Shown one piece after another: positions 3,001-42,481 of a stretch of 54,077 bases of DNA. A model generated the notes under the pieces. It was given only the letters and a program-made list of their open reading frames with translations. It did not search any database and was not told the origin of the DNA. The DNA lies in contig PGYV01000016.1 of assembly GCA_002839855.1 (NCBI GenBank), positions 1 through 54,077 of the forward strand, given 5' to 3'. A program made the position numbers and the translations under genes. Source of the DNA: Candidatus Goldiibacteriota bacterium HGW-Goldbacteria-1. Lineage in GTDB: Bacteria > Oederibacteriota > PGYV01. How positions within the stretch are numbered: the stretch's first letter is position 1; every line of letters starts with the position of its first letter.

Positions 3001-6000
3001 AAGCAGTGTGAATCCGACATCCGCAGATATACCGGCGGGCGGAACAGCAGTATTCACATGGGTTTACAGGTCCGCAACTACTGCAGGAACTGCTTCGTAT
3101 TCAATAATAGCTTCAAGCGGCGGCTACCCAAGCACAAATGTAACGTCAGGTACTGCAAACCAGATACAGGTTGTTGCTGATCCTGTTCTTGCAAATGAAA
3201 TGATTGTCACTCCGTCTGTCGCAAGTGTGGGGCAGAATATAACGGTAATGTTAAGCGTAACTAATTCAGGCGGCAGCATATCAGAAGGAACTGTGCCAGC
3301 GCCTATGGTAAAACTTGGCAGCGGTTCATATTCATATATAAGCGGGCCTTCGCCTGTATCAGCTTCAATAGCCGCCGGAGCAAGCGCTGTTTACACATGG
3401 GTTTACCAGGCAACAGGGGCTGGAACACTTGCGGTAAACAATTATGCAACGGGTTACAGCCAGTACAGCAAACTTACAATAACGGCAGCTGCCGATGACA
3501 GCAACTACGTCACAATACTTACACCGGCTTCACTTGCAAGTTCTATTTCAGCACCTGCCACTAAAAACATAGGGCAGTGGTTCACGGTAATAATGACTGT
3601 AACCAATAACGGCCAGTCAGCAGCAAACAGTGTAGCGCCTCCTATGGCTCTTAACCTTATTGGCGACGGCGGAGCTGTAAGAATCAACGGACCGGCGCCG
3701 GCTGCGGCAGTAATAGCAGGAAATAGTTCAGCCGCATTCACATGGACATACAGTGCGGCAGGTTCAGGCAGCGTCATATTCAGCGGAAATGCTTCGGGAA
3801 TAGATTCCAGCACAGGTGCCGCGGTTTCAAGTATTGTCACAAACAGTAATCTCTTAAAAGTACAGACACCGGCTTCGCTTGGCGTATCAGTTTCCGCCAT
3901 GCCCGCGGTGCTTGGTACAGGGTATATGATAACGGTAGTGGTTGATGTTACCAATAACGGACAGGCAACCGCAAATAATGTTTCAGTCACCGCTGTTGAT
4001 GATATTCAGATATCGGGAGGAAATGCTGAACTTTCATCCGGAGTTCTTCCTTCGGCCGGAGTCACGCTGACAGCTGCGGCCACTGCAAGATTTACATGGG
4101 TTTACAGCGCGCAGGCAGTAGGCACAATAGCATTCACTGCAGCAGCCCGCGGAACAGACGTAAATAATCCGGCAGAACCTGTAATATCTAACATAGGTAC
4201 AAGTGCGAATGTGGTTATTAAAGACGCGGCGTATCTTGTATCTGATATTCAAATAATTCCTTCTACGGTAAGTGTCGGCCAGCAGGTAACCATAATAATG
4301 AACGTAACCAATACGGGTGCCGGCGGCACTTCAGATGTAATAGGGCAGAATATTGTGACAACAGGGTCAGCATCGCTTGTTTATGTAAGCGGGCCGGTTC
4401 CGTCTGCAACACCTATTCCCGGAAACGCGGCGCCAATTCATAACCAGTTCTACACATGGATTTATACCGCGAATACTCCCGGATTTGTATCGGTAAGCGG
4501 AAATGCAAAGGGTATTGATGAAACACTTGGCAATACAATTACAAGCTCGGTTACGGGCAGCAATGTGCTTGCTGTTGAAAGTGCGGTTTCGTTAGCGGCT
4601 CAGCTTAGTGTATCACCTGTTCAGGTAAGCGCAGGGCAGATAATATCAGTCATTATGACGGTCACAAATAACGGCCAGGCAGATGCTGTATCGGTATTGC
4701 CTATAACACCCACATCAAGCATAGTCGGAACTGCTGCCATATTTGAATCGCCCGCGGCTGTTACAATTCCGGGCGGTGCCAGCGCGGTATTTATGTGGAG
4801 CTATACAACACAGGGATCAGGTACTGTTATCTTTACAAGTGCCGCGTTTGGCACGGATGAAAACAGCGGGCTTGTGAAAACTTCCGCACAGGCAGCTTCT
4901 AATGCGCTTATAATTCAGTCGCCTGCTGCGCTTACAGCTTCAATAAATGCAAACCCTGCAAGCCTTGGCACCGGCAATAATATTACCGTTGTAATGACAG
5001 TTTCAAATAATGGTCAGGCTGCGGCAAATGCAGTAACACATGCAGGGTTTATGGCTGTTGGAAGCGCGGGCATTGTAGCCGTATCAACACCTGAACCTGC
5101 AACCGCTAATATTTCAGGCGGAAGTTCAGGTTATTTCACATGGGTATATGCCGCCACATCTGTCGGTTCTATATACTTTACAGCCGATGGGCAGGGAACA
5201 GATTTCAACAGCGGCGCAATCATAGCAACTACAATTACGGCACAGAGCAATACCGTACTTGTTCAGCCTAACTTCCCGGTACTCTCAAGCTGGATATCGG
5301 TTGCTCCGCAGACAATAAACTATAATCAGAGATACACGGTAATAATGTCAGTAAGTAATTCCGGCATTATAACGGCAAACACCGTCACGCCGGATACATA
5401 TACTGTACCTCTTTCAGGCACCACAATATCAGGCCCTATACCGGCAAATGCAAACCTGGCGCCGGGTGAAAGGCAGGACTTCACGTACGTGTTATCAAGC
5501 GCGGGTGTTGCGGGTATATCCAATGTTACAATGACTGCATCATCGGGTATTTATACAAGCACTGATATTTCAAATCCTGCCGGCATGGTGATAAATGTAA
5601 TTGCTAACCCGGCGCTTGCTCAGGACATAACATTACAGCCTGCTGTAGCCAGCGTGGGACAGCGCGTAACGATAATTATGAATGTGACAAATTCAGGCGC
5701 AAGCACAGCCGAAGGCGTTGTGCCTTCCGCATTAATCAAACTTGGAACGGCAAGCTATACGCTTGCCCAAAGCCCGGTACCTGCAAGTGTAAACATAGCG
5801 GCAGGTGCTTCAGCTTCCTTCACGTGGGCATATACGGCCACCGGCGCGGGCAGCCTTGCGGTTAACGCTTATTCCAAAGGCTACGCCCAGTACAGCAAAA
5901 CTACTGTTACAGCAACAGCAGTAAGCAGCAATTTCATAACAATAGAATCGCCTGCATCGCTTTCAAGCGCGCTGTCCATAGACGGAACGATGTTTAACAT

Positions 6001-9000
6001 AGGGCAGGATGTCAGGGTATATATGACTGTTACAAACAGCGGTACGGCAATTGCCAATGTGGTTATGCCTAACCCCCTTAATTATTCCGCGGCAAGCACA
6101 GGCGGCTTGATACCTGTGTCAGGTCCCGACCCCGTAAGCGCTACTGTAGGCACGGGCACAAGCGCGGTATTTACCTGGCTGTATACGGCAGCGGGTTTAG
6201 GTTCGGTTGCGCTTTCAGGAAATGCTTCAGGCATGGATGAAAACAGCCTTGCAACAGTTAATTCAGCTGTCACGGTAAGCCCTGTGATACAGATACAAAG
6301 CCCGGCATCATTAACGGCATCCATTAACGCGTCACCTGCATATCTTGGAACAGGCGAAAATATAACTGTAATTATGAATGTGACAAACAACGGCCAGTCT
6401 GCTGTTAACGGCCTTACAGCAGATCCTGCAGGATTGATCCTGACGAATGGCGGAAACGTGCTGCCTGTTTCAGGGCCAATACCGGCTACAATGACTCTGC
6501 CTGGAATGTCATCTGCCGCATTCACGTGGATATATCAGGCAAACAGCGCGGGAACGGTACAGTTTACTTCAACCGCAAGGGGTACAGATTCAAACGATAT
6601 TTCATCGCTGGTTAACACAGGTTCACAGACAAGCAATGCTGTAGAAATTTATGCCTCTGCCGGCGTTGCAATTTCATCCTTTACGGCATTACCTGCAACG
6701 GTATCCACCGGCCAGCAGATTACGGTATTAATGACGGTTGAAAATGCCGGAATTGGAAACGCAGAAGGCGTAATGCCAAGCGCGCTTGCTCTTATGGTCA
6801 GCGGCACTGCATCAGCATCTTACGTAAGCGGGCCTCTGCCTTCAACACCGCAGAATTTAGCATCCGGTTCAAGCACGCAGTTTGAATGGATATATCAGGC
6901 AACAACACCCGGAACAGTCTGGGCAAGTGCAAATGCAGTAGGATATAACGAGGCAAATAAAGCCACTATCACCGCACAGGCGGCATGGACTAATAATGTA
7001 ATTATACAGCCGGCTGCATCGCTTACGGCAGGGCTTGTTTCAATTCCAAATCAGGTAAGCGTGGGACAGATAATAACAGTTGTAATGGCAGTCACCAATA
7101 ACGGCACTGCAATGGCGGAAGGAGCTTACGGAGTAACGCCCGCGGCATCAATACCGGCCAATGCGCTTATATTAACATCGCCTGCGGCTCAGGATATTGC
7201 CGGCGGTACTTCCACGCACTTTACCTGGACATACAGTGCAAACGCTTCGGGCGCAATTAACTTTGCGTCATTGGCTATAGGGTATGACTTTAACAGCAAG
7301 ATAACCAAAACAGCATCCGCAATAGGCGGAAATGTAAATATACAAAGCGTGCCTGTTCTGGCAAGCCGCGTTTCCGCGATGCCCATACTTATAAAAGAAT
7401 CGGTTGATGCCATAACGGTTATACTGTCAGTAACCAACAGCGGCCAGGCGGCAATAACAAATGTTGTGCCGGCACTTGACATTACAGGCAGTTCAACGCC
7501 TTTATATCTTACAGGCCCGGCGCCGGTATCGGCAAACATTTCCGGAAACGGCGGAACTGCAAGATTTACATGGACATTAAGCGCCGCAGGAGTTGGAAAT
7601 CTTATTTTCAGCGCCTATGCGCAGGGAACAGATGCCAATTCAGGCGTAACATACGGTTCAACGGGCAATACAGTTACTGTTAATGCCGTATCCAATCAGC
7701 CTGTACTTGCGGTAACACTCTCCGCCCCGGCTGAAGTAACCAACGGTCAGAACTTCACTATAATAATGAGGGTGGATAACGCGGGGCTTGTTGACGCTAA
7801 TAATGTTACGGTATCCGCGCTTGCGGTAACCGCGGGTACGGCAACATATGTTGTAGGCCCTGTGCCGTCAGCAAGAAATATAACAGTGGGAAATTATGGC
7901 ACGTTCACGTATGTGTACACAGCGGGCTCTGCGGGAACAATATCGCTTGAAGGCTATGCCTGGAACAGCCCTGTGGCTTCTGTTTCAACCACAGCTTTTG
8001 AACCTCCGGCACTCTCTTATAATTATATGGAAATACTGCCTATAGGCGGCACGTTCTCTGTCGGGCAGAATATTACTCTTACAATGACTATCAGCAATAC
8101 AGGCGCGACAAATGCCATTAACGTAGCGCCCATACTTCCGCTTAACAGAGTAGGCACAGGCAATGCGACAATTGTATCAGGGCCGCTGCCTTCATCATTA
8201 TCAATAACTGCGGGTTCATCAGCCACTTATACATGGGTATACAAAACTACAATTGCCGGCTCTCTTGGATATAACGGCAGGGCGCAGGGCCAGGATATAA
8301 GGACAGGCGCGGGTTACCAGAGCGTTACAGGCACTTCCAATATGGTTAATATAGAAGCGCCGCCTGTATTGGCATCAAGCATAAGCATAATAAATGACAC
8401 ATTGAACCTTGGACAGACCACAAATGTCTATATGACTGTTACAAACAGCGGAACAGCTGACGCGGTAAATGTGGCACCGGGTGATATATATGTGGTTAAT
8501 CCTCCGTCCACCGGCGGAATGTGGGCAATTGACGGGCCTTCGCCGCTTACTCAGAATATTCCTGCCGGAGCGGCAAGGGTATTTACGTGGACATACAGCG
8601 CTACGGCTGTGGGCTCGGTTGCACTGTCCGGAAACGCTTCGGGCTTTGACGAAAACAGCGGCATAAAAATATCCTCTGCAATGAACGCAAGCAAATACAT
8701 ACAGGTTCAGCTGCCAATGCAGCTGTCTGCTTCAATAATAGCCGCGCCGTCTGATGTTAAGACAGGCCAGGCAATAACGGTATACGTAACTGCCAATAAT
8801 ACTGGAGGGGCTGCGGCAGCAAATGTTGTGCCTTCAGCATTAACACTTGGCGGAACAGGCAGTGTTGCCTATGTATCAGGGCCGGTGCCTGCGTCAGCTG
8901 CTATTATTAACGGCGGAAGTGCATTCACATTCGCATATGTGTACAACAGCACTGCTTTCGGAACAGTTAACTTTACGGCTTCAATTGACGCCAATGATTA

Positions 9001-12000
9001 TAATACCGGCGACCCGCAGGCTACTGCTCCGGTGATTTCCAATGATGTAACAATAACCGACTCGGCTTACCTTGCAAGCGACACTTCAGTATCAAGAAGT
9101 GTGGTTTCAACAGGCCAGCAGATAACTGTAATTATGACAGTGACCAACGTGGGGACAGCTTCAACCGCAAGTTTTGTAACACCGTCTATACAGGCTATAC
9201 TTACCGGCGGCGCCGCTTTAACAGCTGTGTCGCAGGCGGTTACATCCACGCCTATGGCTGCAAATGATGTTGTATCATTTACATGGATTTATAACCCAAC
9301 CGCACAGGGAACGGTAACGTTCAGCACATACGCTTCATATGCAGATGCGGACGGCGCCAAGACAACAGATCCTGACCGCACGGCGCCGGTACAGATACAA
9401 AGAGCGGCGGCATTAACGGCATCGCTTATAACACCGCTTACGGTAAATAACGGGCAGATATTTGATGTTACGATGATAATAACAAATACGGGCGGCGCAA
9501 ACGCCACCAATGTAATACCGGTGTTCACATCCAGCGCCACAGGCACGGGTGTGACGGTAAATCTTGCAGCATCCGGCGTTACTGCCACTGCAATAGCGGG
9601 CGGAAGTTCAACAGCCATAGTTTGGCAGTATCAGGCAACAGGAAGCGGGACAATATTCTTCAGCGGCTACGCAAGCGGCATTGATGAAAATGATACAACA
9701 AATACTATTATATCGCCCATGACGCCGCAGAATTATATTACAGTTCAGCAGCCGGCAGCGCTTTCCATCACCGCGTTTACGGTATACCCGCCGGTAGTGG
9801 CACAGGGACAGAACGTCACGGTCTTAATGACAGTAAGCAATGGCGGCGAAGGCCAGGTAACAAATATTAATCCTACAATGACGGCAACAGGCACAGGTTA
9901 TTTCACAAGAATAACAGGCCCTGCTCCCGCAACTGTATCATTATCGGGTAATCAATCAGCGGTCTTTACATGGACTTATTCGGGTTCTGCCATTGGAATA
10001 GTTACATTCAGCGGCGGCGCGGAAGGGCTTGAAGTCAATACAGCTTCCAATATACAGTCAGGCCCAAGCGGAAATGTGGATGCGGAAGTAATAGCTCAGC
10101 AGGCAATATTAACGGCGCAGATGTCATTGTCGCCGTTGGTTGCCGGCCCAAGCCAGAGAATAACAATTAATATGACAGTTTCAAATACAGGGCTTCATGC
10201 GGCAACGGGCGTATCGCCTGTGGCCGGGTTATTAATGTATGACAACACAGGCAGTTTAATCAAGAGCGTAACGCACACAGCTCAGGTTGCGCCTGTGAAT
10301 CTGGCAATAGGGCAGGCACAGACATTCAGGTGGATACTTGAAACGGACGTAAACTTTGGAACGGTAATCTTCAGCGCGGCAGCACAGGGCGCGGACGCCA
10401 TACTGCCAATTACAGTTTCGTCCAATACAGCGGTCTCTGAAATGCTTACAATAGAACAGCCGCCCGCGCTTGTTTCAAGGATAGACGCGTATCCAAATAC
10501 GGTAAATACATCACAGATGATTACAATATTAATGACTGTCACCAATAATGGCCAGGCGGATGCGGTTAATGTAATGCCGTCACAGTTATTTAAGAGCGGT
10601 TCGGCGCTTGCCAATCCGAATAACCCCAACGTTCATTCGCCGTCATCGGCTGTAATACCGGGCGGCGGCGGTGTGGCTGTCTTTACATGGGTGACACAGG
10701 CTACAGGCGCGGGTACAATTAACTGGCTTGGCTGGGCGTCAGGACAGGACGAAAATTCGCTCAACACATTCCTGTCAGCTTCAACAAGCACAAACGTAAT
10801 AACTGTACAAAGCCCGGCTAATTTAAGCATTGATTCAATTGCAGCGCCTTCTTACGTCACGGTGGGCCAGCAGTTTACTGTTATAATGACGGTAACAAAC
10901 CTTGGCGGCGCGTCAGCTCTTGGCGCTTCTGCAAATATGAACATAAGTTCCGGCAGCGGCGGCGTTATACCGATGGCAACTCCGGCAGCGGTGGATATTG
11001 CAGGCCGGACAACAGCCGCCCTTACATGGATATATCAGGCATCAGGCCAGGGTGATGTGGTACTGTCCGCCATGATAACGGCAACAGATTCAAACACCGG
11101 CGCTGTTATAACTGACGCGGGCTTCACCGGCACAATTAATGTACAGTCGCCGGCGTCCATTACTTCAGATATTTCAATAGCGCCCGCAATGAATTACAAC
11201 GGTCAGATATTCACCGTATCAATGCTTGTAAATAATTCCGGTCAGGCTGCTGCTTCTTCTGTAGGCATAACACCTTTTGTGCTTACAGAAACGGGAGCGT
11301 CAGCATTCATGGTTACAGAGCCTTCGCCGCTTACAATGACGGTTGCGGGCGGAACGTCGCAGATATTCCAGTGGACATATTCCGCATCTGGTGACGGAAC
11401 GATAACATTCAGCGCTTATGCAACGGGCACAGACGCTAATACATTAGATCCTATTGGTTCAACAGGCACAGAAGCGTCGGTAGAAATCAGGGCATCGGCT
11501 TCGCTTGTGGCGGATGTATCAGTATCAGCGGCAATGGTTTCCACAGGCCAGTCAGTAGTAGTAATTATGACAATAACAAATACCGGTTTTGGCAGTTCAA
11601 ATGCCTATAATGTCACACCGCTTTATCCTGTATGGGCGGGCGGCGCCACGTTCAGCATGGTTTCAGGGCCGTCAGGCGCGGCAGTTACATTAACGGTAGG
11701 AGCCGCGGAATCGTTCACATGGGAATATCAGGCAACAAGCGCGGGCACATCATCATTTAGCGCTATCGCATATGGAAAAGACAGCGGCATCGGCGACATT
11801 TATTCATCGCCTGTCTTAAGCGCGCCGGTAACTGTCCAGACCTCAGCAGCGTTAATGTCAACGCTGTACAGTTTCCCTAACAGCATTAATACAGGGTCTG
11901 ATTTTACAGTAATAATGTCGGTCACCAATACCGGCGGCGCCACAATTAACAATCTTACGCCGCAGTATAGCTTCACACCTGCTGCAGGAGTGGCAGCGCT

Positions 12001-13600
12001 TTCTTCATCGCCTGCTCCTGTTGCAACGTTTGCCGGCGGCGCTTATCAGGCATTCACGTGGATATTTAACACAACAGCACCCGGCACAATTGCCTTTGTG
12101 GGACGCGCCGAGGGTATTGATGTTAATTCAGGCTCAAATGTGACATCTGCACAGACATCAGCGCCGGCTGTAGTAATACAGGCGCCGGCAGTACTTGTAT
12201 CCACAATAGAAACATATCCGCCTGCCACGCTGTCAAGGTCGCAGGTAATCACAGTTATACTTAACGTTACAAACACAGGCGGCGCAGCGGCAACAGGAGT
12301 TACGCCCACGGCGATGCTGATATCAGACGGCGGTTCAGGAGCAACATATGAACTGCTTACAGGAAATACTTCAAGTGTTACGTTAAATGGCGGGCAGTCA
12401 ACGTCATTTACCTGGACATATTCTGCCACGTTAGAAGGACAGCTTACGTTCGGCAGCTCTGCTTCCGGTACGGACGCCAACAGCGGCGCGGCAATAGTGT
12501 CAGCACCAGATGATGTAACTGTTACTATAACAGAACCTTCCGCAAACCTTGTTGCAACACTTGACGTTTTCTCTCCGTCAGCTACAGACAGGGCGGAACT
12601 TAACGAAACAATAACAGCAATAATGGCTATAACTAATACAGGCCTTGTATCGGCTCGCGCGGTAACTCCTTCGGTAATGGCAATAACGCCGGTCGGATTT
12701 GTTACGCTAGTCTCAGGTCCTGTACCCGCGGTTATTGATACAATAGCTGTCGGTGCTACGCAGTACATAACATGGGTATACGAAGCCGGTTCTAATCCTG
12801 AATACCTTACGTTTACGGCATCGGTTTCAGGAACAAATGACGGTACGTCCACACCTGCAAGCAATTCAGGCGTGGCGGTATCAGACAGTATAAGAATAAC
12901 GCCTTCGTTTGCTAACCTGGCGCTCTCAATTAACGCGTTGCCTGCCACGGTGGGCGTAGGTGATGCCATAACAGTAATAATGACGGTAACCAACAACGGC
13001 CAGCTTGATGCGGGTAATGTAAATCCTGTGCCTGCGGACCTGCTGCTCTCCGGAGCCGGATACGCTTCTGTATCAGTAACCAACAGTACGCTTAATGCTT
13101 CAATACCTGCAGGCGGGTCACAGAACTTTACCTGGATATTTACAGCGGTTTCAGGCGGAAATATCACATTTGCCGGAAACCTGGCGTATGAATCATATAA
13201 CACATTTACCGGTGAGACTAATACAATCAATAACACTGACCCGGCAAATTATGTGGTTTCCAACGTTATAACAATAGCATTCGGAAGCTCCACCACATCG
13301 CATAACGATATGTACTTTACAGCGAACAGTTTCAACCCGCAGGCGGGCGAGTCGGTGGGCATAATCTTCAGCGTTAACGCGGATTCAAACAACGCTGATT
13401 TAATGGTCTTTAACGTGGCGGGTGAAAGGGTAAGGACAATGTCACTTGGCCCTGTAGCAGCCGGAATCCTTTACACGCAGCTTGCGGTATGGGACGGCAG
13501 GGCGGATGACGGCAAGCTTGTCACCACTGGCATGTACTACATAAAACTGCGCGACGGTTCATATGAAGTAATTAAACCGGTGGCTGTTATAAAAAAATAG
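2..13600 (+). CDS. Giant surface protein of Ig-like repeats, 3' part (5' end outside window)
   Basis: The frame is open from base 2 with no stop, and its first residues (GTDENSGLVK) match a unit interior near 4853. The gene therefore starts upstream of the window, and the TTG at 80 is not a real start. The visible 4,532 residues consist of about 38 units of roughly 105-120 residues. Each carries a motif of the type ITVxMxVTNxGxAxAN, then a xVSGPxP turn and a FTWxY strand, as in CARDB/DUF11-like beta-sandwich repeats. Composition is rich in Ala, Ser, Thr, Val and Gly with almost no Cys. The last ~95 residues (from about 13300) form a FlgD-like Ig / type IX-like C-terminal domain with MVFNVAGERVR and GMYYIKLRDG. 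The likely role is a secreted cell-surface adhesin or stalk protein; function is inferred only from architecture. A PorV-like gene starts 33 bp downstream. Confidence 0.9.
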   Translation, partial: GTDENSGLVKTSAAAVSNSVVIQTPALLSASMTALPASIGVGSEITVIMTVTNNGQATANAVTPTGFAIIGSASYVAVNGPLPTNATITSGTSASFTWRYAAVSTGSLYFTANASGLDGNNAAYTVSTSVTAQSNPVNIYPTDPILTSWVTVSPQVINYNQRFTVIMSVSNVGIVAANGTIPNVIPTVLSSSLMSGPVPAFVDIPVGGFAQFTWVFESAMTAGTANPTVIASSAGFNSTDITTLSASQIQVIADPMLAHDIIVSPAVVSVGQNITIRMHITNSGASEAQGVVPAALSKLGNGNYTYVSGPAPASQTVAAGANVYFTWIYQSSGAGSLAVNGYATGYSQYSKATKTAAAEDSNYITIQSPASLTSSISIPATKNIGQWFTVTMTVTNNGTATANAVAPPSNLTVVGTGGAVRMSGPEPPSAAIIGGTSQVYQWTYSAAGAGTVTFAGIAAGTDANSGAAVASNNAVSTNFVIQTGANLSVAISAAPAVAGTGYPITVTGIITNNGQATANNVRMNELNDAAVSGGNATLTTGVVPSAGVILTGGASAYFTWTYTANTIGTINFTGIATGVDGNTNLGVTSTAATSNNVEIRNTAFLTADLSALPLSVSAGQRITVLMHVTNTGAGDANGLTGVNMTPSGTGSVSYVSGPVPVTQSIAAGADTYLTWVYTAMTAGNISFNAGARAVDVNIGNTINSAAAVSNAVIIETPASLAASMNAYPSLISAGQQITVLMTVTNNGTADAVSVLPVTPSASVPSSVSIITLPASVTIPGGASSVFTWVFDSTAPGNVVFTSKASGLDENTLNTISSAQVSSNEIVIQAPAAIAASISASPSAVALGSNVTVIMTVTNSGTASANAVIPAGFGFSGSASLVYVSGPVPTNATITAGASSQFTWVYATVGLGSLTFSSNASGTDFNSGMPVSTTYTAYSNIVNVYPNNPVMTSFVTVSPSIVNYNQNYTVRLTVSNVGVQAANGTFASPLNPAPVLGGTLQSSVNPTSADIPAGGTAVFTWVYRSATTAGTASYSIIASSGGYPSTNVTSGTANQIQVVADPVLANEMIVTPSVASVGQNITVMLSVTNSGGSISEGTVPAPMVKLGSGSYSYISGPSPVSASIAAGASAVYTWVYQATGAGTLAVNNYATGYSQYSKLTITAAADDSNYVTILTPASLASSISAPATKNIGQWFTVIMTVTNNGQSAANSVAPPMALNLIGDGGAVRINGPAPAAAVIAGNSSAAFTWTYSAAGSGSVIFSGNASGIDSSTGAAVSSIVTNSNLLKVQTPASLGVSVSAMPAVLGTGYMITVVVDVTNNGQATANNVSVTAVDDIQISGGNAELSSGVLPSAGVTLTAAATARFTWVYSAQAVGTIAFTAAARGTDVNNPAEPVISNIGTSANVVIKDAAYLVSDIQIIPSTVSVGQQVTIIMNVTNTGAGGTSDVIGQNIVTTGSASLVYVSGPVPSATPIPGNAAPIHNQFYTWIYTANTPGFVSVSGNAKGIDETLGNTITSSVTGSNVLAVESAVSLAAQLSVSPVQVSAGQIISVIMTVTNNGQADAVSVLPITPTSSIVGTAAIFESPAAVTIPGGASAVFMWSYTTQGSGTVIFTSAAFGTDENSGLVKTSAQAASNALIIQSPAALTASINANPASLGTGNNITVVMTVSNNGQAAANAVTHAGFMAVGSAGIVAVSTPEPATANISGGSSGYFTWVYAATSVGSIYFTADGQGTDFNSGAIIATTITAQSNTVLVQPNFPVLSSWISVAPQTINYNQRYTVIMSVSNSGIITANTVTPDTYTVPLSGTTISGPIPANANLAPGERQDFTYVLSSAGVAGISNVTMTASSGIYTSTDISNPAGMVINVIANPALAQDITLQPAVASVGQRVTIIMNVTNSGASTAEGVVPSALIKLGTASYTLAQSPVPASVNIAAGASASFTWAYTATGAGSLAVNAYSKGYAQYSKTTVTATAVSSNFITIESPASLSSALSIDGTMFNIGQDVRVYMTVTNSGTAIANVVMPNPLNYSAASTGGLIPVSGPDPVSATVGTGTSAVFTWLYTAAGLGSVALSGNASGMDENSLATVNSAVTVSPVIQIQSPASLTASINASPAYLGTGENITVIMNVTNNGQSAVNGLTADPAGLILTNGGNVLPVSGPIPATMTLPGMSSAAFTWIYQANSAGTVQFTSTARGTDSNDISSLVNTGSQTSNAVEIYASAGVAISSFTALPATVSTGQQITVLMTVENAGIGNAEGVMPSALALMVSGTASASYVSGPLPSTPQNLASGSSTQFEWIYQATTPGTVWASANAVGYNEANKATITAQAAWTNNVIIQPAASLTAGLVSIPNQVSVGQIITVVMAVTNNGTAMAEGAYGVTPAASIPANALILTSPAAQDIAGGTSTHFTWTYSANASGAINFASLAIGYDFNSKITKTASAIGGNVNIQSVPVLASRVSAMPILIKESVDAITVILSVTNSGQAAITNVVPALDITGSSTPLYLTGPAPVSANISGNGGTARFTWTLSAAGVGNLIFSAYAQGTDANSGVTYGSTGNTVTVNAVSNQPVLAVTLSAPAEVTNGQNFTIIMRVDNAGLVDANNVTVSALAVTAGTATYVVGPVPSARNITVGNYGTFTYVYTAGSAGTISLEGYAWNSPVASVSTTAFEPPALSYNYMEILPIGGTFSVGQNITLTMTISNTGATNAINVAPILPLNRVGTGNATIVSGPLPSSLSITAGSSATYTWVYKTTIAGSLGYNGRAQGQDIRTGAGYQSVTGTSNMVNIEAPPVLASSISIINDTLNLGQTTNVYMTVTNSGTADAVNVAPGDIYVVNPPSTGGMWAIDGPSPLTQNIPAGAARVFTWTYSATAVGSVALSGNASGFDENSGIKISSAMNASKYIQVQLPMQLSASIIAAPSDVKTGQAITVYVTANNTGGAAAANVVPSALTLGGTGSVAYVSGPVPASAAIINGGSAFTFAYVYNSTAFGTVNFTASIDANDYNTGDPQATAPVISNDVTITDSAYLASDTSVSRSVVSTGQQITVIMTVTNVGTASTASFVTPSIQAILTGGAALTAVSQAVTSTPMAANDVVSFTWIYNPTAQGTVTFSTYASYADADGAKTTDPDRTAPVQIQRAAALTASLITPLTVNNGQIFDVTMIITNTGGANATNVIPVFTSSATGTGVTVNLAASGVTATAIAGGSSTAIVWQYQATGSGTIFFSGYASGIDENDTTNTIISPMTPQNYITVQQPAALSITAFTVYPPVVAQGQNVTVLMTVSNGGEGQVTNINPTMTATGTGYFTRITGPAPATVSLSGNQSAVFTWTYSGSAIGIVTFSGGAEGLEVNTASNIQSGPSGNVDAEVIAQQAILTAQMSLSPLVAGPSQRITINMTVSNTGLHAATGVSPVAGLLMYDNTGSLIKSVTHTAQVAPVNLAIGQAQTFRWILETDVNFGTVIFSAAAQGADAILPITVSSNTAVSEMLTIEQPPALVSRIDAYPNTVNTSQMITILMTVTNNGQADAVNVMPSQLFKSGSALANPNNPNVHSPSSAVIPGGGGVAVFTWVTQATGAGTINWLGWASGQDENSLNTFLSASTSTNVITVQSPANLSIDSIAAPSYVTVGQQFTVIMTVTNLGGASALGASANMNISSGSGGVIPMATPAAVDIAGRTTAALTWIYQASGQGDVVLSAMITATDSNTGAVITDAGFTGTINVQSPASITSDISIAPAMNYNGQIFTVSMLVNNSGQAAASSVGITPFVLTETGASAFMVTEPSPLTMTVAGGTSQIFQWTYSASGDGTITFSAYATGTDANTLDPIGSTGTEASVEIRASASLVADVSVSAAMVSTGQSVVVIMTITNTGFGSSNAYNVTPLYPVWAGGATFSMVSGPSGAAVTLTVGAAESFTWEYQATSAGTSSFSAIAYGKDSGIGDIYSSPVLSAPVTVQTSAALMSTLYSFPNSINTGSDFTVIMSVTNTGGATINNLTPQYSFTPAAGVAALSSSPAPVATFAGGAYQAFTWIFNTTAPGTIAFVGRAEGIDVNSGSNVTSAQTSAPAVVIQAPAVLVSTIETYPPATLSRSQVITVILNVTNTGGAAATGVTPTAMLISDGGSGATYELLTGNTSSVTLNGGQSTSFTWTYSATLEGQLTFGSSASGTDANSGAAIVSAPDDVTVTITEPSANLVATLDVFSPSATDRAELNETITAIMAITNTGLVSARAVTPSVMAITPVGFVTLVSGPVPAVIDTIAVGATQYITWVYEAGSNPEYLTFTASVSGTNDGTSTPASNSGVAVSDSIRITPSFANLALSINALPATVGVGDAITVIMTVTNNGQLDAGNVNPVPADLLLSGAGYASVSVTNSTLNASIPAGGSQNFTWIFTAVSGGNITFAGNLAYESYNTFTGETNTINNTDPANYVVSNVITIAFGSSTTSHNDMYFTANSFNPQAGESVGIIFSVNADSNNADLMVFNVAGERVRTMSLGPVAAGILYTQLAVWDGRADDGKLVTTGMYYIKLRDGSYEVIKPVAVIKK
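74..9751 (+). repeat. Seven-unit coding super-repeat, four recognisable copies of about 2.4 kb
   Basis: Equivalent codons (the Pro of the xPAxLxxS unit junction) recur at 74, 2489, 4922, 7352 and 9752, spacings of 2415, 2433, 2430 and 2400 bp, all multiples of three. Class-specific markers repeat with the same period. INYNQ occurs near 471, 2883 and 5316. A G-Y-S/A-Q-Y-S-K motif occurs near 1030, 3450 and 5880. A NIGQ/NLGQ marker occurs near 1154, 3572, 6002 and 8411. Units 1-7, 8-14 and 15-21 correspond one to one. Units 22-28 are a diverged fourth copy, and beyond 9752 only the spacing persists. This implies segmental duplication of a seven-unit block. Confidence 0.85.
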
Positions 13601-36998: not shown

Positions 36999-37038
36999 GG
37001 ATGCTTAGATGCTTGGAAGGTTGGATGGTTAGAAGGTC
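36999..37038. repeat. Octamer tandem repeat (five units), locus D left end
   Basis: GGATGCTT, AGATGCTT, GGAAGGTT, GGATGGTT, AGAAGGTC in exact 8-bp phase, starting 6 bp after the stop codon of the lipoprotein gene. Confidence 0.7.
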
Positions 37039-37065
37039 TGGTTGGAGCGAGCATGCGCAGCGGAA

Positions 37066-37179
37066 ATCCCTGCGATGAAGCGAATATATGAGCGTAAGAA
37101 GCAGGGATAGACGCGGGTCTTTAGCCCGCGGATTTTATAAGTAGATTTTAGTAGTGGTAGGCGCACCCTTTAGGGTGCG
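37066..37179. repeat. Three hairpins of the mosaic intergenic element, locus D
   Basis: ATCCCTGC (37066-37073) pairs with GCAGGGAT (37101-37108) across 27 nt. CGCGGG/CCCGCG with a 7-nt loop lies at 37112-37130 (head ATAG). GTAG (37157-37160) heads CGCACCC/TTTA/GGGTGCG at 37162-37179. They occupy part of the 490-bp gene-free stretch 36994-37483. Confidence 0.7.
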
Positions 37180-37257
37180 GCAGTTGGTTTAGTTTTAATG
37201 GGTTTTTGTTCTTAATTTCTATTCCTAGAATTTCTTTTCTTACGAGGTTATGCTTTT

Positions 37258-37347
37258 GCTTAACTGCCTATAGCTTAAACCGCTGTTTCTTCCGTCCCTC
37301 CGTGCATCCGTCCTTCTGTTACAAAGCTTTTATATATGGGATATGGG
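37258..37347. repeat. 29-bp module, octamers and TATGGGATATGGG, locus D
   Basis: A 29-bp block starting GCTTAACTGCC and ending AACCGCTGT (37258-37286) is identical to 39931-39959. CCGTCCCT, CCGTGCAT and CCGTCCTT follow (37292-37315), then TATGGGATATGGG (37335-37347). This is the same module order as at 26027-26082. Confidence 0.7.
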
Positions 37348-37433
37348 TTAACAGTTTATTGGATAATCCTTCTTATGCAACCTTTTCCCGTTCCATACGT
37401 TATAATGTTATGGAGTGAGTTTTTGATTTAACC

Positions 37434-37465
37434 GAGCCGCTGAGCTGCTGAGCCGCCGAGCTGCC
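37434..37465. repeat. GAGCYGCY octamer repeat, copy 1
   Basis: Four units in phase: GAGCCGCT, GAGCTGCT, GAGCCGCC, GAGCTGCC. A second copy is at 43342-43373. It lies directly before the RBS of the sigma factor gene; a TATAAT at 37401-37406 upstream has no clear -35. Confidence 0.75.
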
Positions 37466-37483
37466 AGGTTCAGGAGGGTTTTT

Positions 37484-38080
37484 TTGAGTCTTGAAAATGA
37501 AAAGGACATAATAAACAGGGCAAAACAGGACCCGCAGGCGTTCGCGGAGCTGTTTGATTTTTATTTTGATAAAATATTCCATTACATCTTGTACCGCACG
37601 GGAAACGCGGAAATAGCCAGGGATATAGCGTCCGAGGTTTTCTTTAAAGCCCACAAAAATATAAAAAACTTCCGCTTTATGGGATATCCTTTTTCCGCGT
37701 GGCTTTACCGCATGGCGGGAAACGAGGTTATTTCGTACTTCAGGCATAAAAAGTTTGAACCTTCATCCCTTGAAGCGTATCTGGAAGATAATAAAATAGA
37801 CGGCCCCGCTTCAAGGCAGGACATGCAGCAGGAAATAATAAAAGCGCAGGAACTGGCAGATTCCAACGGCGCGTACTGCGCGGTTAAGCAGGCAATGCTT
37901 AAGCTGGATCCGCTTTATCAGGAAGTAATTGTGCTTAAATTCCTGCAGGAAAAATCCATAAAGGAAATATGTGAAATACTGGGTAAAAAAGAAGGCACTG
38001 TAAAATCGCTTATTTCAAGAGCGCTGGATATGATAAGGAAAGAGTCGGATATTAAGTATTTTTCGTCCATAAACGGATAA
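37484..38080 (+). CDS. Sigma-70 family (ECF-like) RNA polymerase sigma factor
   Basis: 198 residues from a TTG start 6 bp after AGGAGGG. Sigma region 2 at about 18-90 (FAELFDFYFDKIFHYILYR ... DIASEVFFKAHKNI ... FSAWLYRMAGNEVISYFR). Region 4 with its HTH at about 135-187 (LDPLYQEVIVLKFL ... SIKEICEILGKKEGTVKSL). There is no region 1.1 or 3, as in ECF sigma factors. ECF factors direct RNA polymerase to a small regulon and are held by an anti-sigma factor. The next gene, 58 bp downstream, is a short-tailed membrane protein in the right position and topology for that role. The target promoter cannot be named from this window. Confidence 0.92.
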   Translation: MSLENEKDIINRAKQDPQAFAELFDFYFDKIFHYILYRTGNAEIARDIASEVFFKAHKNIKNFRFMGYPFSAWLYRMAGNEVISYFRHKKFEPSSLEAYLEDNKIDGPASRQDMQQEIIKAQELADSNGAYCAVKQAMLKLDPLYQEVIVLKFLQEKSIKEICEILGKKEGTVKSLISRALDMIRKESDIKYFSSING

Positions 38081-38138
38081 AACGCAACCTAATTTTTTTT
38101 GGAACGTTATCAGATATAAGAGCAAAAGGAGAATTAAA

Positions 38139-38930
38139 ATGGAAGAAAAAAACTTTAAAAAAGCGCGGCTGGAAAATGTGACCATACCGCAAAACAGGGA
38201 GTTCTTAAGAAATGCCCTTATAAATTCCGCGGCAACAAAAAAGAAATCGTTTTTTAATTTTGCGCCGGTAAAAATAGGCGCAGCCGCTTTTGCGGTAGTG
38301 CTTGCGGCTGTTTTTATGGTGGTGGAAGATAATAATAATCCCGGGCAGACTAACAATCTGGGCGGCGTATGGAGCACCTATGATGATTCCGCAGAGGGCA
38401 ATAACTCTGTTGTATGGCCGCAGGCGCCAAAAGCTTGTGAAAACCTGTTTGAAAAAAGCGCGCCCGGTTTTGGCGGTAAAGGGTATGCGGTGCGCGTTAC
38501 AGGGAATGCAGGGGATAAAGCAAAAACCACTTTGGGAGTTAATACCTATTTAAGCGAACACGCTTCGTGCCCGCGCTGTTCAGGGATAAATATAACCATG
38601 TTCAAAGGTATTAAATTTAAGATGAAGGGCAATATTGCCGGCGGCGCGCTTTACTTTATCCTGCCGCACGAATCCGGCGAGCCGGACGAAAATAAAACTT
38701 TATGCCAAAGCCTTACGGATAATAATGATTATACGGCGGATATCAGCGGGCTTGTAAAAAGTGAATGGACAGACGTTAAACTTGATTTTTATAAGTCGTT
38801 TAAACAGCCCAAGGGAACCACGGTAAAAATAGATAAAGTGCTTGAAAATGCCAACAGGATTAAATGGGAATGGAAAGGCAATAAAGGTGAAAAGATGGAT
38901 ATTTGGATAGATGAAATTCAATTTTATTAA
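38139..38930 (+). CDS. Membrane anti-sigma-like protein with carbohydrate-binding-like ectodomain
   Basis: 263 residues, type II-like topology. It has a basic cytoplasmic segment of ~42 residues (IPQNREFLRNALINSAATKK), one membrane helix (about 43-62) and an ectodomain (about 75-263). The ectodomain resembles CBM11/CIA30-type jelly rolls: GGVWSTYDDSAEGNNS at its start and MDIWIDEIQF at its end. The same fold-length sequence is encoded as a free secreted protein by the next gene. Four ectodomain cysteines (100, 144, 147, 189) could form disulfides. The anti-sigma role is inferred from gene order and topology; the cytoplasmic segment is too short to recognise a known anti-sigma domain. AAAGGAG RBS. 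Confidence 0.75.
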   Translation: MEEKNFKKARLENVTIPQNREFLRNALINSAATKKKSFFNFAPVKIGAAAFAVVLAAVFMVVEDNNNPGQTNNLGGVWSTYDDSAEGNNSVVWPQAPKACENLFEKSAPGFGGKGYAVRVTGNAGDKAKTTLGVNTYLSEHASCPRCSGINITMFKGIKFKMKGNIAGGALYFILPHESGEPDENKTLCQSLTDNNDYTADISGLVKSEWTDVKLDFYKSFKQPKGTTVKIDKVLENANRIKWEWKGNKGEKMDIWIDEIQFY

Positions 38931-38934
38931 AATT

Positions 38935-38947
38935 CCCGGTATCCGGG
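38935..38947 (+). other. Intercistronic hairpin CCCGG-TAT-CCGGG
   Basis: A perfect 5-bp GC stem with a 3-nt loop, between the stop of the membrane gene (38930) and the AAGGAGG of the secreted gene. There is no T-run. It may protect or process the mRNA and so set different levels for the two paralogues. Confidence 0.45.
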
Positions 38948-38964
38948 ACAATAAGGAGGAAGGT

Positions 38965-39651
38965 ATGAAAAAGATTACAGCAATGGCGGCAGCGGTAATG
39001 TTTGTGTTTTCAGGGCTGGTATTTGCGGCAGAACCGTTTATAGTGGATGACTTTGAAGACGGCAATGTTCAGACAGTAAAGGGCGGATGGTGGTACACGT
39101 ATAATGATGCAAATGCAGGCGGTAATTCTGAAGTATGGCCCGCGCAGGGCAAGTTTGAATTAAGCAAGCCGGGAGCGGATGGAAAGGGCTATGCAGCAAG
39201 GATGAAAGGTACTGCCGGTAATAAACTTGGATGGGATTTTGTAGGAATGGGAGCAACGCTATCGCTTAATTCCGGATGTCCCACGGCAGAACCTGTTGAT
39301 TTAAAAATGTACACAACGCTTCAGTTTAAGATTAAGGGGAACGTGTCCGGCGGCAGGCTTACGGTGGTGATTCCGTATACTGCCGGCACTTGCGAGCAGG
39401 GATCTGATGGTCCTAAAAGTCTTACGGATTGGGCGGATTATGAATGCGGTATTACATCCAAGGTATCCGAGGGTTGGACGACAGTAAAACTTGATTTAAG
39501 AAAAGATTTTAAGCAGCCAAAGTGGGTAAAAAAAGAAAATGTAGCGGCGATTGATAAAGTGTTGGAAAACGCGCACAACATCTCATTTCATTTTTCCAGC
39601 CCGGACGGCGATAATATGGATATCTGGGTAGACGACATACAGTTTAATTAA
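38965..39651 (+). CDS. Secreted CBM11/CIA30-like protein, paralogue of the upstream ectodomain
   Basis: 228 residues from the ATG at 38965 (AAGGAGG 7 bp upstream; an in-frame ATG at 38911 lies inside the previous gene and lacks an RBS). Signal peptide about 1-23 (ending LVFAAEP). The mature part starts FIVDDFEDGNVQTVKGGWW, typical of CBM11/CIA30 jelly rolls, and ends MDIWVDDIQFN. It aligns over its whole length with the ectodomain of the membrane gene: GKGYAxRxxGxAG, TxxFKxKGNxxGG, KSLTDxxDY, FKQPK and IDKVLENAxxI are shared. It could be a carbohydrate-binding protein, a ligand presenter, or a soluble competitor for the membrane sensor. A strong terminator follows at 39671. Confidence 0.8.
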   Translation: MKKITAMAAAVMFVFSGLVFAAEPFIVDDFEDGNVQTVKGGWWYTYNDANAGGNSEVWPAQGKFELSKPGADGKGYAARMKGTAGNKLGWDFVGMGATLSLNSGCPTAEPVDLKMYTTLQFKIKGNVSGGRLTVVIPYTAGTCEQGSDGPKSLTDWADYECGITSKVSEGWTTVKLDLRKDFKQPKWVKKENVAAIDKVLENAHNISFHFSSPDGDNMDIWVDDIQFN

Positions 39652-39670: not shown

Positions 39671-39703
39671 AAAAAACCCGGGCTATTTTGGCCCGGGTTT
39701 TTT
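39671..39703. terminator. Intrinsic terminator of the sigma/ectodomain operon
   Basis: An A-run, CCCGGGC, a 7-nt loop TATTTTG, GCCCGGG and a T-run, 20 bp after the stop at 39651. Strong stem; works in either direction. Confidence 0.85.
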
Positions 39704-39728
39704 ATTTATTGTTTTTGATTTGGATTTG

Positions 39729-39800
39729 GTAGACGCGGGTCTTTAGCCCGCGGCAGTTGGTTTTGATTTGGGGTTTGGTAGCCGCGCCTTTTAAGGCGCG
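39729..39800. repeat. Two GTAG-headed palindromes (REP-like), locus E
   Basis: GTAG (39729-39732) heads CGCGGG/CCCGCG (39734-39752). GTAG (39778-39781) heads CGCGCCTT/TT/AAGGCGCG (39783-39800). They are part of the 394-bp gene-free stretch 39652-40045. Confidence 0.75.
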
Positions 39801-39829
39801 TTGTTTTGCCTTGTTTTGAAAATGGCATC

Positions 39830-39863
39830 AAAAAAAACGGGCTGTGTATGGCCCGTTTTTTTT
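39830..39863. terminator. Dispersed bidirectional terminator, copy 2
   Basis: An A-run, ACGGGC, TGTGTATG, GCCCGT and a T-run; same core as 25957-25988. Confidence 0.75.
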
Positions 39864-39930
39864 ATTAATTTAATGGTTATTTTTTTTGCTTTCATTCATG
39901 GTGTTTGTTTCTTTTTGGTTTTACGCTTCT

Positions 39931-39972
39931 GCTTAACTGCCTATAGCTTAAACCGCTGTCTCTTCCGTCCCT
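39931..39972. repeat. 29-bp module plus one CCGTCCCT octamer, locus E
   Basis: 39931-39959 is identical to 37258-37286, followed by a single CCGTCCCT (39965-39972). The octamer run is truncated here compared with the other loci. Confidence 0.7.
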
Positions 39973-39990
39973 CAGGTTCTAAAATATCAT

Positions 39991-40018
39991 TTGATGTTTT
40001 TACACAATTGGGTATAAT
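39991..40018 (+). promoter_or_regulatory. Promoter for the lipoprotein at 40046
   Basis: TTGATG (39991-39996), a 16-bp spacer and TATAAT (40013-40018), 28 bp before the GTG start. Confidence 0.6.
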
Positions 40019-40045: not shown

Positions 40046-41098
40046 GTGAAAAAATTATTATTATCAGTATCAATTGTAATTGTTTTGGCTTTATTAATTC
40101 CGGCATGCAGCAAGACAGCGCCGGCAGAACCGCAGGCAGAACCTACAAGCGTAAATACTCCCACGATAGGGGAGGCTGTAGACAATATGGGGATTACTTT
40201 TGTTATGGGCGGATGTCAGCCCTGGACCGCGGTTACAAATCAGTCATATTCAGGCGGGGATTCTTTAAAAAGCGGTGTTGTTGTTGACGGCTGCGCTTCA
40301 AGTATAACCGCCAGTTTTGAAGGCCCGGGAAAACTGGAATATTATGTAAAGACTTCAACTGACAGCGGGGACTTACTGCGTTTTTATATGGACGGTTCCG
40401 AATACTTTTCTTATTCGGGGGAAACCGACTGGTATAAAGAAACCCTATATTTCTCTTCGGGCAGCAGCGATGTATCCTGGGAATATGTAAAAAACACGGA
40501 TGGAATTACCGCCGGAAGCGATGCGGTTTGGCTTGATAATATCACTTATGTTAAAACGACGCCTGTGACGGTTGATTATTTTAGTGATGGTGATATGGTA
40601 TCGCTGTTTGGTACTGCCTGGGAATCTCTCACCAGCACAGGGTCTACAATATCAGATTTTGGCCTTTCTTCCAGGGAATTCAGCGGATTTGTTTTGGCAA
40701 TTACAGGCACTGTTCAGGCTGTTGGAACAGGCAGTGTATATAAGGGGCAGCTTGGGGTTAAGGTTAATCTTAGTGAAAGCGGTTCCGTTGATTTAAGGTT
40801 TCAGACATTATCTTACGCCGCGAATTCTGTTAAAACCTTAACCGGCAGTGACGCGCTAAAAATTTGTTTTAAAGTAGTTAACACAACAGGCGAATATCTT
40901 TTTGCTTCTTTTACGGCGCCATCAGCATGGATTAATGCGGGTTTTGGATTTAACGCTATGCAGGAAGGCGGGGCGTACACTAAAGATGAAGTTCTGGATG
41001 ACGCAAAAACGCTTGAAATATACCTGCAGCTTGAATCTTCCGTGGAGAATAACACAGCCCCCGTGGAATTGTATCTGGATTCAATCAGCACGTATTAA
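40046..41098 (+). CDS. Lipoprotein with two carbohydrate-binding-like beta domains
   Basis: 350 residues from a GTG start with GCGGAGG 8-9 bp upstream. Lipobox IPAC (Cys21). Domain 1 (about 50-172) resembles the MAM/concanavalin-like type found in many secreted bacterial proteins: YYVKTSTDSGDLLRFYMDG ... WYKETLYFSSG ... WEYVKN ... DAVWLDNITY. Domain 2 (about 175-350) resembles CBM11-type jelly rolls, with DYFSDGDMVSLFG at its start and VELYLDSIS at its end. It is probably a surface-anchored glycan-binding or adhesive protein. It stands alone between two mosaic repeat regions. Confidence 0.75.
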   Translation: MKKLLLSVSIVIVLALLIPACSKTAPAEPQAEPTSVNTPTIGEAVDNMGITFVMGGCQPWTAVTNQSYSGGDSLKSGVVVDGCASSITASFEGPGKLEYYVKTSTDSGDLLRFYMDGSEYFSYSGETDWYKETLYFSSGSSDVSWEYVKNTDGITAGSDAVWLDNITYVKTTPVTVDYFSDGDMVSLFGTAWESLTSTGSTISDFGLSSREFSGFVLAITGTVQAVGTGSVYKGQLGVKVNLSESGSVDLRFQTLSYAANSVKTLTGSDALKICFKVVNTTGEYLFASFTAPSAWINAGFGFNAMQEGGAYTKDEVLDDAKTLEIYLQLESSVENNTAPVELYLDSISTY

Positions 41099-41492: not shown

Positions 41493-42077
41493 ATGAGATT
41501 CAATACAAACATTATTATGCAGATGTCATCAGATGCCAAAGTGAAAATTCTTCATTATGTGCTTAAGGACGGGTTCAGGATGACAGGAAGGGAACTGGCC
41601 AGAATATGCGGGGTATCGCATTCAATGGCCATAGATACGCTTAAGGAATTTGAGGAAATGAACCTTGTTTATAATTTCAGGGCCGGCAAATCAGTGGTGT
41701 GGATGACAAAGACAGACAGCTATGCTTATTTGATAGCTAAAAAACTATATGACAAAAAAGAGGAGTATCTGCCGGTAGAACACCTTAAAACTATGCTGAT
41801 TGGCAGCCTGCCGAAAGGGATTGTAAAAAGGGCTGTTCTTTTTGGCTCTGTTTCCAGAGGCGAAGAAAACTATAACAGTGACATTGACCTTTTTGTTCTG
41901 GTAGAGTCCGAAAAAAATAAGAAAAAAATGGAAGAATTTCTTCAGAATATGTCTTTTAAATGCGGGAAGTTATACGGAAATGTGCTGGGTTTCTATTTGT
42001 TGACGGAAAAAGAATTTGCAGCAAAGAAAAATCTTGCTATAATCAGGAATGTGGAAAAGGGGATAAAATTAATATGA
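41493..42077 (+). CDS. HTH-nucleotidyltransferase (MNT) fusion protein
   Basis: 194 residues. An N-terminal winged-helix DNA-binding region (about 15-70; MTGRELARICGVSHSMAIDTL) is followed by a minimal nucleotidyltransferase domain (about 95-190). The active-site pattern is intact: FGSVSRGEENYNSDIDLFV (Gly118-Ser119, Asp130, Asp132). Stand-alone MNT proteins are antitoxins that adenylylate partner HEPN proteins. The fused HTH suggests that this one also binds its own promoter, where a strong inverted repeat lies. AAAGGAG RBS. The stop overlaps the start of the HEPN gene (ATGA). Confidence 0.88.
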   Translation: MRFNTNIIMQMSSDAKVKILHYVLKDGFRMTGRELARICGVSHSMAIDTLKEFEEMNLVYNFRAGKSVVWMTKTDSYAYLIAKKLYDKKEEYLPVEHLKTMLIGSLPKGIVKRAVLFGSVSRGEENYNSDIDLFVLVESEKNKKKMEEFLQNMSFKCGKLYGNVLGFYLLTEKEFAAKKNLAIIRNVEKGIKLI

Positions 42078-42481
42078 CAAAAAAAATAGATACAAAAGCA
42101 GTGGAAAAATCAATGTGTTCTAATTACCTGCAAAAAGCTGAAGAAAATCTGCGAAGCGCCAGAAAAGCGGTTGAGGCACGGGATTATAATTCGGCGGCCG
42201 TAAGTGCAGTCCATTCGGTTATTTCCGCTGCTGATGCATACTGTGTATTTGCTTTGGGCAAACGGTGTTCTTCACCCAAACACGAGGATGCTTCGGAGCT
42301 GGTTAAAACAGCCCCATATCCTGACAGTGAAAAAAATGCGGTTTCAAAGGCGTTTATGTCGGTGATACGTATAAAAAACATGGCCGAGTATGAGGAACGT
42401 CTTGTAAAACAGAAGGAAGCTGAAAAGGCTGTAATGGAAGCCGGGGAACTTTTAAATATGGTAAAGGTTAAACTGAAATGA
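42074..42481 (+). CDS. HEPN domain protein paired with the nucleotidyltransferase
   Basis: 135 residues from the ATG at 42074, overlapping the stop of the upstream gene. The four-helix HEPN pattern is visible: YLQKAEENLRSARKAVEARDY, AAVSAVHSVISAADAY, and ALGKRCSSPKHEDA. HEPN RNases of the MNT-paired type carry R-x4-H-x-Y. Here the best aligned stretch is RIKNMAEY (Arg99 to Tyr106), with Ala at the His position. RNase activity is therefore doubtful, although the Tyr that can be adenylylated is present. It could be a toxin of a different subfamily or an inactive regulatory partner. Confidence 0.82.
   Translation: MTKKIDTKAVEKSMCSNYLQKAEENLRSARKAVEARDYNSAAVSAVHSVISAADAYCVFALGKRCSSPKHEDASELVKTAPYPDSEKNAVSKAFMSVIRIKNMAEYEERLVKQKEAEKAVMEAGELLNMVKVKLK

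Follow-up and report, generated by a model that had tools for sequence, protein, structure and literature searches.

An ECF sigma factor cassette with anchored and free copies of a CBM11-like domain: a candidate glycan-responsive switch in Goldbacteria

Introduction

Polysaccharide sensing through the carbohydrate-binding ectodomains of anti-sigma factors is known mainly from the SigI/RsgI systems of cellulolytic Firmicutes. In Clostridium thermocellum, a sigma gene is followed by the gene for a single-pass anti-sigma-like protein with a carbohydrate-binding module (CBM) on the outside (PMC12203970, PMC4711584), and the layout of RsgI includes an autocleaving domain (PMC12203970). A second group of systems is found in Bacteroidota, where extracytoplasmic function (ECF) sigma factors and their membrane anti-sigma factors govern glycan use (PMC10766802). 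Here we describe a three-gene cassette that resembles both, located in a stretch of 54,077 nucleotides (the window) of contig PGYV01000016.1 from Candidatus Goldiibacteriota bacterium HGW-Goldbacteria-1. It consists of the gene for an ECF sigma factor, the gene for a membrane protein with a CBM11-like ectodomain (the anchor) and the gene for a soluble copy of that ectodomain (the soluble twin). Cellulose use has a precedent in this lineage, as active cellulases are encoded in a Goldbacteria genome that was sorted on cellulose, and among the CBMs of this genome CBM11 is the most frequent, with 24 copies (PMC7031533).

As one promoter motif is common to the cassettes and to cellulase-type genes, the trio is most likely a glycan-responsive switch for cellulases. 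The full reading that we favour, and hold to be reasonably probable, is that of an ECF sigma/anti-sigma switch for secreted cellulase-type enzymes in which the soluble twin buffers or competes for the ligand.

Layout of the cassette

The three open reading frames, all on the + strand, form one apparent transcription unit with the following parts.

37484..38080, + strand: ECF sigma factor, TTG start, 198 residues; Pfam and NCBIfam profile matches
38139..38267, + strand: cytoplasmic tail of the anchor, residues 1-43, presumed to bind sigma; position relative to the transmembrane stretch and alignment of 17 tails
38268..38324, + strand: transmembrane helix of the anchor, residues 44-62; hydropathy in all 19 anchors, and alignments
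38325..38930, + strand: CBM11-like ectodomain of the anchor with CPxC motif, plus stop codon; AlphaFold/Foldseek and alignment
38965..39027, + strand: signal peptide of the soluble protein; sequence and N-termini of nine orthologues
39028..39651, + strand: soluble CBM11-like domain, twin of the anchor ectodomain; structure model, Foldseek, tree and the ratio of non-synonymous to synonymous substitution rates (dN/dS)
39676..39704 (about), + strand: intrinsic terminator-like hairpin and T-run (acccgggc-tatttt-ggcccgggt-ttttt) that closes the transcription unit; direct reading of the sequence

The sigma factor contains sigma-70 regions 2 and 4 only, within about 200 residues, as is typical of the ECF class. 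Pfam Sigma70_r2 matches residues 27-90 (2.5e-12), Sigma70_r4_2 matches residues 134-181 of 198 (5.5e-15), and the ECF superfamily model TIGR02937 matches at 2.9e-25, all above cut-off. An initial interpretation from the letters and open reading frames alone (the sequence-only reading) had called this gene an ECF-like sigma factor, and these matches confirm it. The nearest NCBIfam model is TIGR02952, the BldN family (2.5e-35), with a score of 121.9 bits that remains below the equivalog cut-off of 206.

The anchor gene (38139-38930, + strand) encodes 263 residues, with a tail of 43 residues where the sequence-only reading had counted about 42, one transmembrane stretch (residues 44-62, the best hydrophobic stretch, mean hydropathy 2.5) and an ectodomain of about 200 residues. 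In all anchors the helix leads almost without a linker into β-strand 1 of the CBM-like fold (MVVEDNNN, compared with FIVDDFED in the soluble domain), and an autocleaving domain like that of RsgI would not fit in between.

The soluble gene likely starts at the ATG at 38965 and not at 38911, since the former is preceded by a good ribosome site, AAGGAGGAAGGT, and opens a signal peptide that ends in VFA before AEP; the predicted gene thus spans 38965-39651 and encodes 228 residues. The anchor and the soluble protein are 40% identical over 230 aligned columns (E 2e-50) and the sequence blocks that had been named as shared are present in both. The sequence-only reading of the three genes, as a sigma factor followed by a membrane protein with one helix and then by a copy of the ectodomain behind a signal peptide, therefore stands, on the open reading frames and on this identity.

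Fold of the two ectodomains

The soluble domain was predicted at a confidence (predicted local distance difference test, pLDDT) of 96.4 from an alignment of 66 rows, and the end of the protein coincides with the end of the jelly roll in this model. Foldseek placed two solved structures at the top: the CBM11 of C. thermocellum Lic26A-Cel5E, with a template modelling (TM) score on the target of 0.70, and NDUFAF1, a CIA30 protein that is a complex I assembly factor. The anchor ectodomain gave a weaker model with identical top matches. Both domains thus have the β-jelly-roll fold of the CBM11/CIA30 superfamily, which the sequence-only reading had suspected; a lack of a shared fold, which it had named as a possible refutation, was not what the predictions returned.

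Profile searches point the same way, although they depend on the depth of the alignment. With a deeper alignment (A4), a sequence search of the PDB matched the family profile to the C. thermocellum CBM11 at 8e-7 to 9e-7 over the C-terminal half, whereas the same search with either of two shallower alignments (A1, A2) alone gave no match. Pfam recognises CIA30 in 33 and CBM_11 in 25 of 66 relatives (E<=0.01), but neither domain in the anchor or the soluble protein of the window.

Conservation of the sigma-anchor pair

Searches with the anchor profile covered 45 genomes of the phylum, 14 of which belong to the order of the window. Full anchors are confined to this order, where 19 were found in 10 of the 14 genomes. 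The order also holds 19 orthologous sigma factors, one of them split across two contigs, which stand clear of everything else in the sigma profile search (worst orthologue 1e-56, next match 6e-29). They fall into two unlinked cassettes. Cassette 1, the trio of sigma, anchor and soluble gene, is present in nine of the 14 genomes with its gene order conserved, and it is mainly the trio that is conserved while the flanks vary. The paralogous cassette 2 (sigma, anchor, secreted enzyme-like protein) occurs in 10 genomes in a mostly fixed neighbourhood. Its third gene encodes a putative enzyme of about 764-795 residues, whose N-terminus is CBM-like and which also has a carboxypeptidase-regulatory-like domain and a weak similarity to glycoside hydrolases (GH53, arabinofuranosidase). 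Upstream of cassette 2 (L009 8533-13920), two GGDEF-like genes and HD-GYP-like, HDOD-like and CoaE-like genes, named by inspection of their sequences, immediately precede the second sigma gene in most genomes.

A sigma gene without the membrane gene, which would have spoken against a functional pair, was not found, as the anchor adjoins the sigma gene in 19 of 19 cases. From this conserved pairing we infer that the tail of the anchor binds the sigma factor. The alternative, that the membrane protein does not inhibit sigma and the genes are just co-transcribed, could draw on the lack of a recognisable anti-sigma domain in the tail. We consider it very unlikely, because genes that are always adjacent to a sigma gene, here in two unlinked cassettes, usually encode anti-sigma partners, and the topology, with one membrane passage and an N-terminus on the inside, suits that role. 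The anchor is of neither the zinc-binding class I nor the FecR type of anti-sigma factor: the zinc anti-sigma motif HxxxCxxC occurs in none of the 19 tails, and Pfam gave no match to the FecR domain. A match to Nmad5 at 0.003 in a single tail was taken as chance.

Promoter motif and predicted regulon

An ECF-type promoter motif, GCAACYTTT-N12-CRTTATA, is shared among the upstream regions and occurs twice in cassette 1.

37377..37406, + strand: P1, a copy of the motif (GCAACCTTTTCCCGTTCCATACGTTATAAT) ahead of the sigma gene, predicted to mediate autoregulation; present in all 8 cassette-1 loci for which upstream sequence is available
38084..38113, + strand: P2, second motif copy GCAACCTAATTTTTTTTGGAACGTTATCAG between sigma and anchor; before the anchor in 8 of 8 cassette-1 and 10 of 10 cassette-2 loci

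The conserved GCAAC/CRTTATA motif before the sigma gene is a predicted site with the AAC-type -35 element that is a trait of ECF sigma factors, and P1 is one of two exact matches to the full motif in the source genome (2.86 Mb). In cassette 2 only the anchor gene is preceded by the motif, at all 10 loci. The P2 sites of cassette 1, which were outside the training set of the position weight matrix, all score as high as the best 0.6% of random 150-bp stretches; this null set is not free of real sites. P2 lies within the last sigma codons (Met-Gln-Pro) in several genomes and in non-coding DNA in others, so that coding constraint alone is insufficient as an explanation. At loci where motif and gene overlap (L052, L053, L054, L055), the motif encodes the C-terminal peptide of sigma, QPFPGTGI or QPSMS.

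The 14 genomes of the order were then scanned with the pattern GCAACNTT-N11..15-CRTTATA, with the reversed pattern as control, which gave 25 matches compared with 3 for the control. All but one of the 25 lie in the 10 cassette-bearing genomes; the four genomes without a cassette, which make up about one fifth of the DNA, contribute the remaining match. The cassettes themselves account for 12 matches. Of the remaining 13, nine lie in front of genes for secreted proteins: one GH9 with a cellulase N-terminal domain, two GH44 (GH, glycoside hydrolase family), two large proteins with CBM4/9 and CBM11-like modules (one of them in the source genome at C1:8198), one discoidin-domain protein with a CBM11-like module and three further secreted proteins. 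The last four comprise one match before a broken frame, one running off its contig and two that look like chance. When one or two mismatches are allowed, further large module-bearing proteins appear, for instance at C4:465925 of the source genome, 39 bp before a protein of 1374 residues; as the fixed pattern with two mismatches is no more frequent in this genome than its control (15 and 14), such weak sites are not claimed.

CBM11-like modules in general do not mark members of the regulon, since of the 34 module-bearing genes whose upstream sequence is readable, just 3 have a strong site; the predicted regulon is a subset of these genes. Another motif of promoter-like character, CGRAACTTTTT-N12-TTGTCWWAT, accompanies several of the others, including genes at the locus of a third and distant ECF sigma factor. 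This sigma factor (L011 1783-2367; C8:191776-192348 in the source genome), which has relatives in G034, G037, G038, G039, G040, G041 and G042, has a different putative anti-sigma gene (L011 2457-3431) and lies beside very large proteins with several CBM11-like modules.

The cellulase-type genes behind the motif lend support to the polysaccharide sensor that the sequence-only reading had in mind. They also bear on another explanation, in which the ectodomain senses an envelope signal that is not a glycan, either redox state through CPxC or secretion stress caused by enzymes with the same module. Every anchor has at least four cysteines and an invariant CPxC motif, and related modules are present on some predicted target enzymes, through which the sensor could read the secretion load. 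As the CBM11 fold and the nature of the genes behind the motif both favour a glycan, we regard this explanation as quite unlikely.

The soluble twin

The source genome encodes an outer-membrane marker, Omp85 (1.1e-50), and many sorting tails of the type IX secretion system (T9SS) type, one of which is carried by a predicted target enzyme. Together with the absence of any extension beyond the jelly roll in the soluble twin, these markers indicate that the sensor domain and its twin probably share the periplasm.

A midpoint-rooted tree of 66 domains, in which the enzyme modules lie outside the sensor group, splits 26 sensor-type domains from the enzyme-borne modules with a support of 100/100. 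The soluble domains (9), the anchors of cassette 1 (anchor-1, 8) and those of cassette 2 (anchor-2, 9) each form a single clade, and the soluble clade is, with strong support, the sister of both anchor clades. The soluble copy is thus older than the split between anchor-1 and anchor-2. A recent duplication of the ectodomain was considered and rejected, because the three clades are each single and old. The soluble gene is under strong purifying selection similar to that on sigma and anchor, with a dN/dS of 0.04-0.14 where synonymous sites are unsaturated. The residues C105, G130, V174, Q184-P185 and G215 are common to soluble proteins and anchors and absent from most enzyme modules, while the second cysteine of CPxC is found in anchors but not in soluble proteins. 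Such fixed differences show that both forms are specialised and not interchangeable.

Two side observations concern the history of the soluble gene and its relatives. For the soluble gene of G039 (L058 7501-8187), the copy in G040 is a nearer relative than the one in the window, in conflict with sigma and anchor, for which G039 is closest to the window; recombination of the soluble gene is therefore possible. Secondly, G038 (L069 563-2155) and G037 (L070 6937-9105), which are without sigma-anchor cassettes, encode tandem CBM11-like lipoproteins, one of which is the closest relative of the sensor clade.

Within the same switch, the twin may be an effector with no part in signalling. It would then bind oligosaccharides in the periplasm, or be released as a CBM on its own, and aid uptake or the targeting of enzymes. 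We give this a substantial chance, although less than an even one. The third slot of the operon is taken by a secreted enzyme-like protein in cassette 2, and the lone lipoproteins nearest to the sensor clade occur without a sigma factor. Against a plain effector, the twin groups with the sensors and not with enzyme modules, has residues found only in sensors, and is encoded downstream of P2 along with the anti-sigma gene.

Some sensors receive their ligands from periplasmic binding proteins. By analogy, the twin could be a co-receptor: it would bind the ligand first and then attach to the anchor ectodomain, and release of sigma would be triggered by a complex of two proteins and not by the sugar alone. 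The pairing of twin and anchor in 9 of 9 trio genomes, their probably shared compartment and the fixed differences between them would agree with this. As the interface is hypothetical and G033 keeps anchor 2 where no soluble gene was found, we think a co-receptor unlikely.

A model of the proposed switch

In the glycan-responsive switch that we favour, the membrane protein would retain sigma through its short cytoplasmic tail at rest. Oligosaccharides of the β-glucan type would cross the outer membrane and bind to the periplasmic CBM11-like domain of the anchor. Since the helix runs directly into the first β-strand, ligand binding could alter access to the transmembrane helix and thereby free the sigma factor, perhaps by proteolysis involving an M50 protease, a candidate site-2 protease encoded in the source genome. 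Free sigma would transcribe its own operon from P1, a positive feedback, while transcription from P2 would yield extra anchor and soluble protein without extra sigma, a negative feedback. It would also transcribe the unlinked genes for GH9, GH44 and CBM11-bearing enzymes. The soluble twin would then be a periplasmic ligand-binding protein that is co-induced with the anti-sigma factor and shares the ligand of the sensor, and most likely it would buffer or compete for this ligand and so damp the signal. Its sensor-clade residues and an age equal to that of the sensor clade speak for this role. Taken one step further, active signalling would raise the inhibitor together with a soluble decoy or co-receptor in the same compartment, from a promoter fired by the sigma factor itself. 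Such a circuit, conserved across an order, would be a bacterial counterpart of soluble receptor decoys; we put it forward as a tentative idea that is less probable than the switch as such.

Several findings weigh against this model. The anchor tails are short and poorly conserved, with a mean column identity of 38% in the alignment of 17 tails, and a Pfam search of the tails found no anti-sigma domain and no match to RsgI_N. In the source genome alone, the loose motif with any spacing is not enriched (14 matches, compared with 20 for the reversed control). For this reason only sites with fixed spacing are claimed, and the plausible targets are picked out only by the fixed 15-bp spacing. G033 (82% complete) has cassette 2 only, with no soluble twin found, which suggests that the twin may be dispensable for the anchor-2 type. 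Finally, as discussed above, the soluble gene could encode a plain effector.

Surroundings of the cassette

The cassette is flanked by the dispersed intergenic repeats GCGGGTCTTTAGCCCGCGG, CTTAACTGCCTATAGCTTAAACCGCTGT and TTCCGTCCCTC (window positions 37020-37480 and 39710-40000). Downstream lie a gene for a lipoprotein-like secreted protein of 350 residues with no Pfam match (40046-41098) and a pair resembling HEPN/MNT toxin-antitoxin systems, in which an NTP_transf_2 nucleotidyltransferase with a winged helix is overlapped by a HEPN gene (41493-42481). At the other end of the window, an open reading frame of 4506 codons (80-13600) ends in a weak match to a T9SS-type tail (13334-13576) which is below cut-off.

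Comparison with described systems

Among NCBIfam models, the sigma factor comes nearest to that of the BldN family, known from the BldN/RsbN system of Streptomyces, but it scores far below the cut-off. Its best profile match among solved structures is PDB entry 6dxo, which we take to be the BldN-RsbN complex; to our knowledge, RsbN has no CBM ectodomain. The sensor domain resembles the CBM11 of Lic26A-Cel5E (1v0a, 6r3m) in fold at about 15% identity. CBM11 proper is a binder of β-1,3-1,4- or β-1,4-glucans. Unlike the module of Lic26A-Cel5E, the domain is here proposed to serve as a sensor and as a free domain.

With the polysaccharide regulators of Bacteroidota, the cassette has in common the pairing of an ECF sigma factor with a membrane anti-sigma factor. 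It differs from them in that no FecR domain was found, the sensor itself bears the CBM-like domain and no SusC/D genes were recognised in the cassettes. The ECF52 and ECF53 groups likewise tie ECF regulation to predicted carbohydrate-binding parts (PMC10766802), but in these the domains are fused to the sigma factor, whereas here they are distributed over two separate genes and a soluble twin. In the titles and abstracts of the open-access literature, subscription literature being outside this scope, no ECF partner with a CBM11-type ectodomain and no free copy of a sensor domain is described. The role of a conserved free copy of a sensor domain thus appears not to have been described previously. 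With the conserved twin, a question of wider reach can be put to the test in a simple system, namely whether bacteria set the gain of transmembrane signals with free receptor domains.

The trio works like SigI/RsgI without being a member of that group. Common to both are the gene order, an anti-sigma-like protein that spans the membrane once and has its carbohydrate-binding module on the outside (carbohydrate binding being predicted from the fold in our case), a predicted autoregulation and a cellulase-type regulon. The families of the sigma and anti-sigma factors differ, as the sequence-only reading had stated: the sigma factor is of the ECF and not of the sigma-I type, RsgI_N has no match in the source genome and there is no autocleaving periplasmic domain between helix and sensor. 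The sensor module is CBM11-like instead of CBM3, CBM42, PA14 or GH10, and the soluble copy and the inner promoter motif before the anti-sigma gene set the cassette further apart. As the host has an outer-membrane marker, the sensor is probably periplasmic, unlike that of SigI/RsgI. If our reading is correct, an uncultured, cellulose-degrading phylum has arrived at an independent, ECF-based solution to the same task, in which the predicted promoter code names a part of the cellulase regulon.

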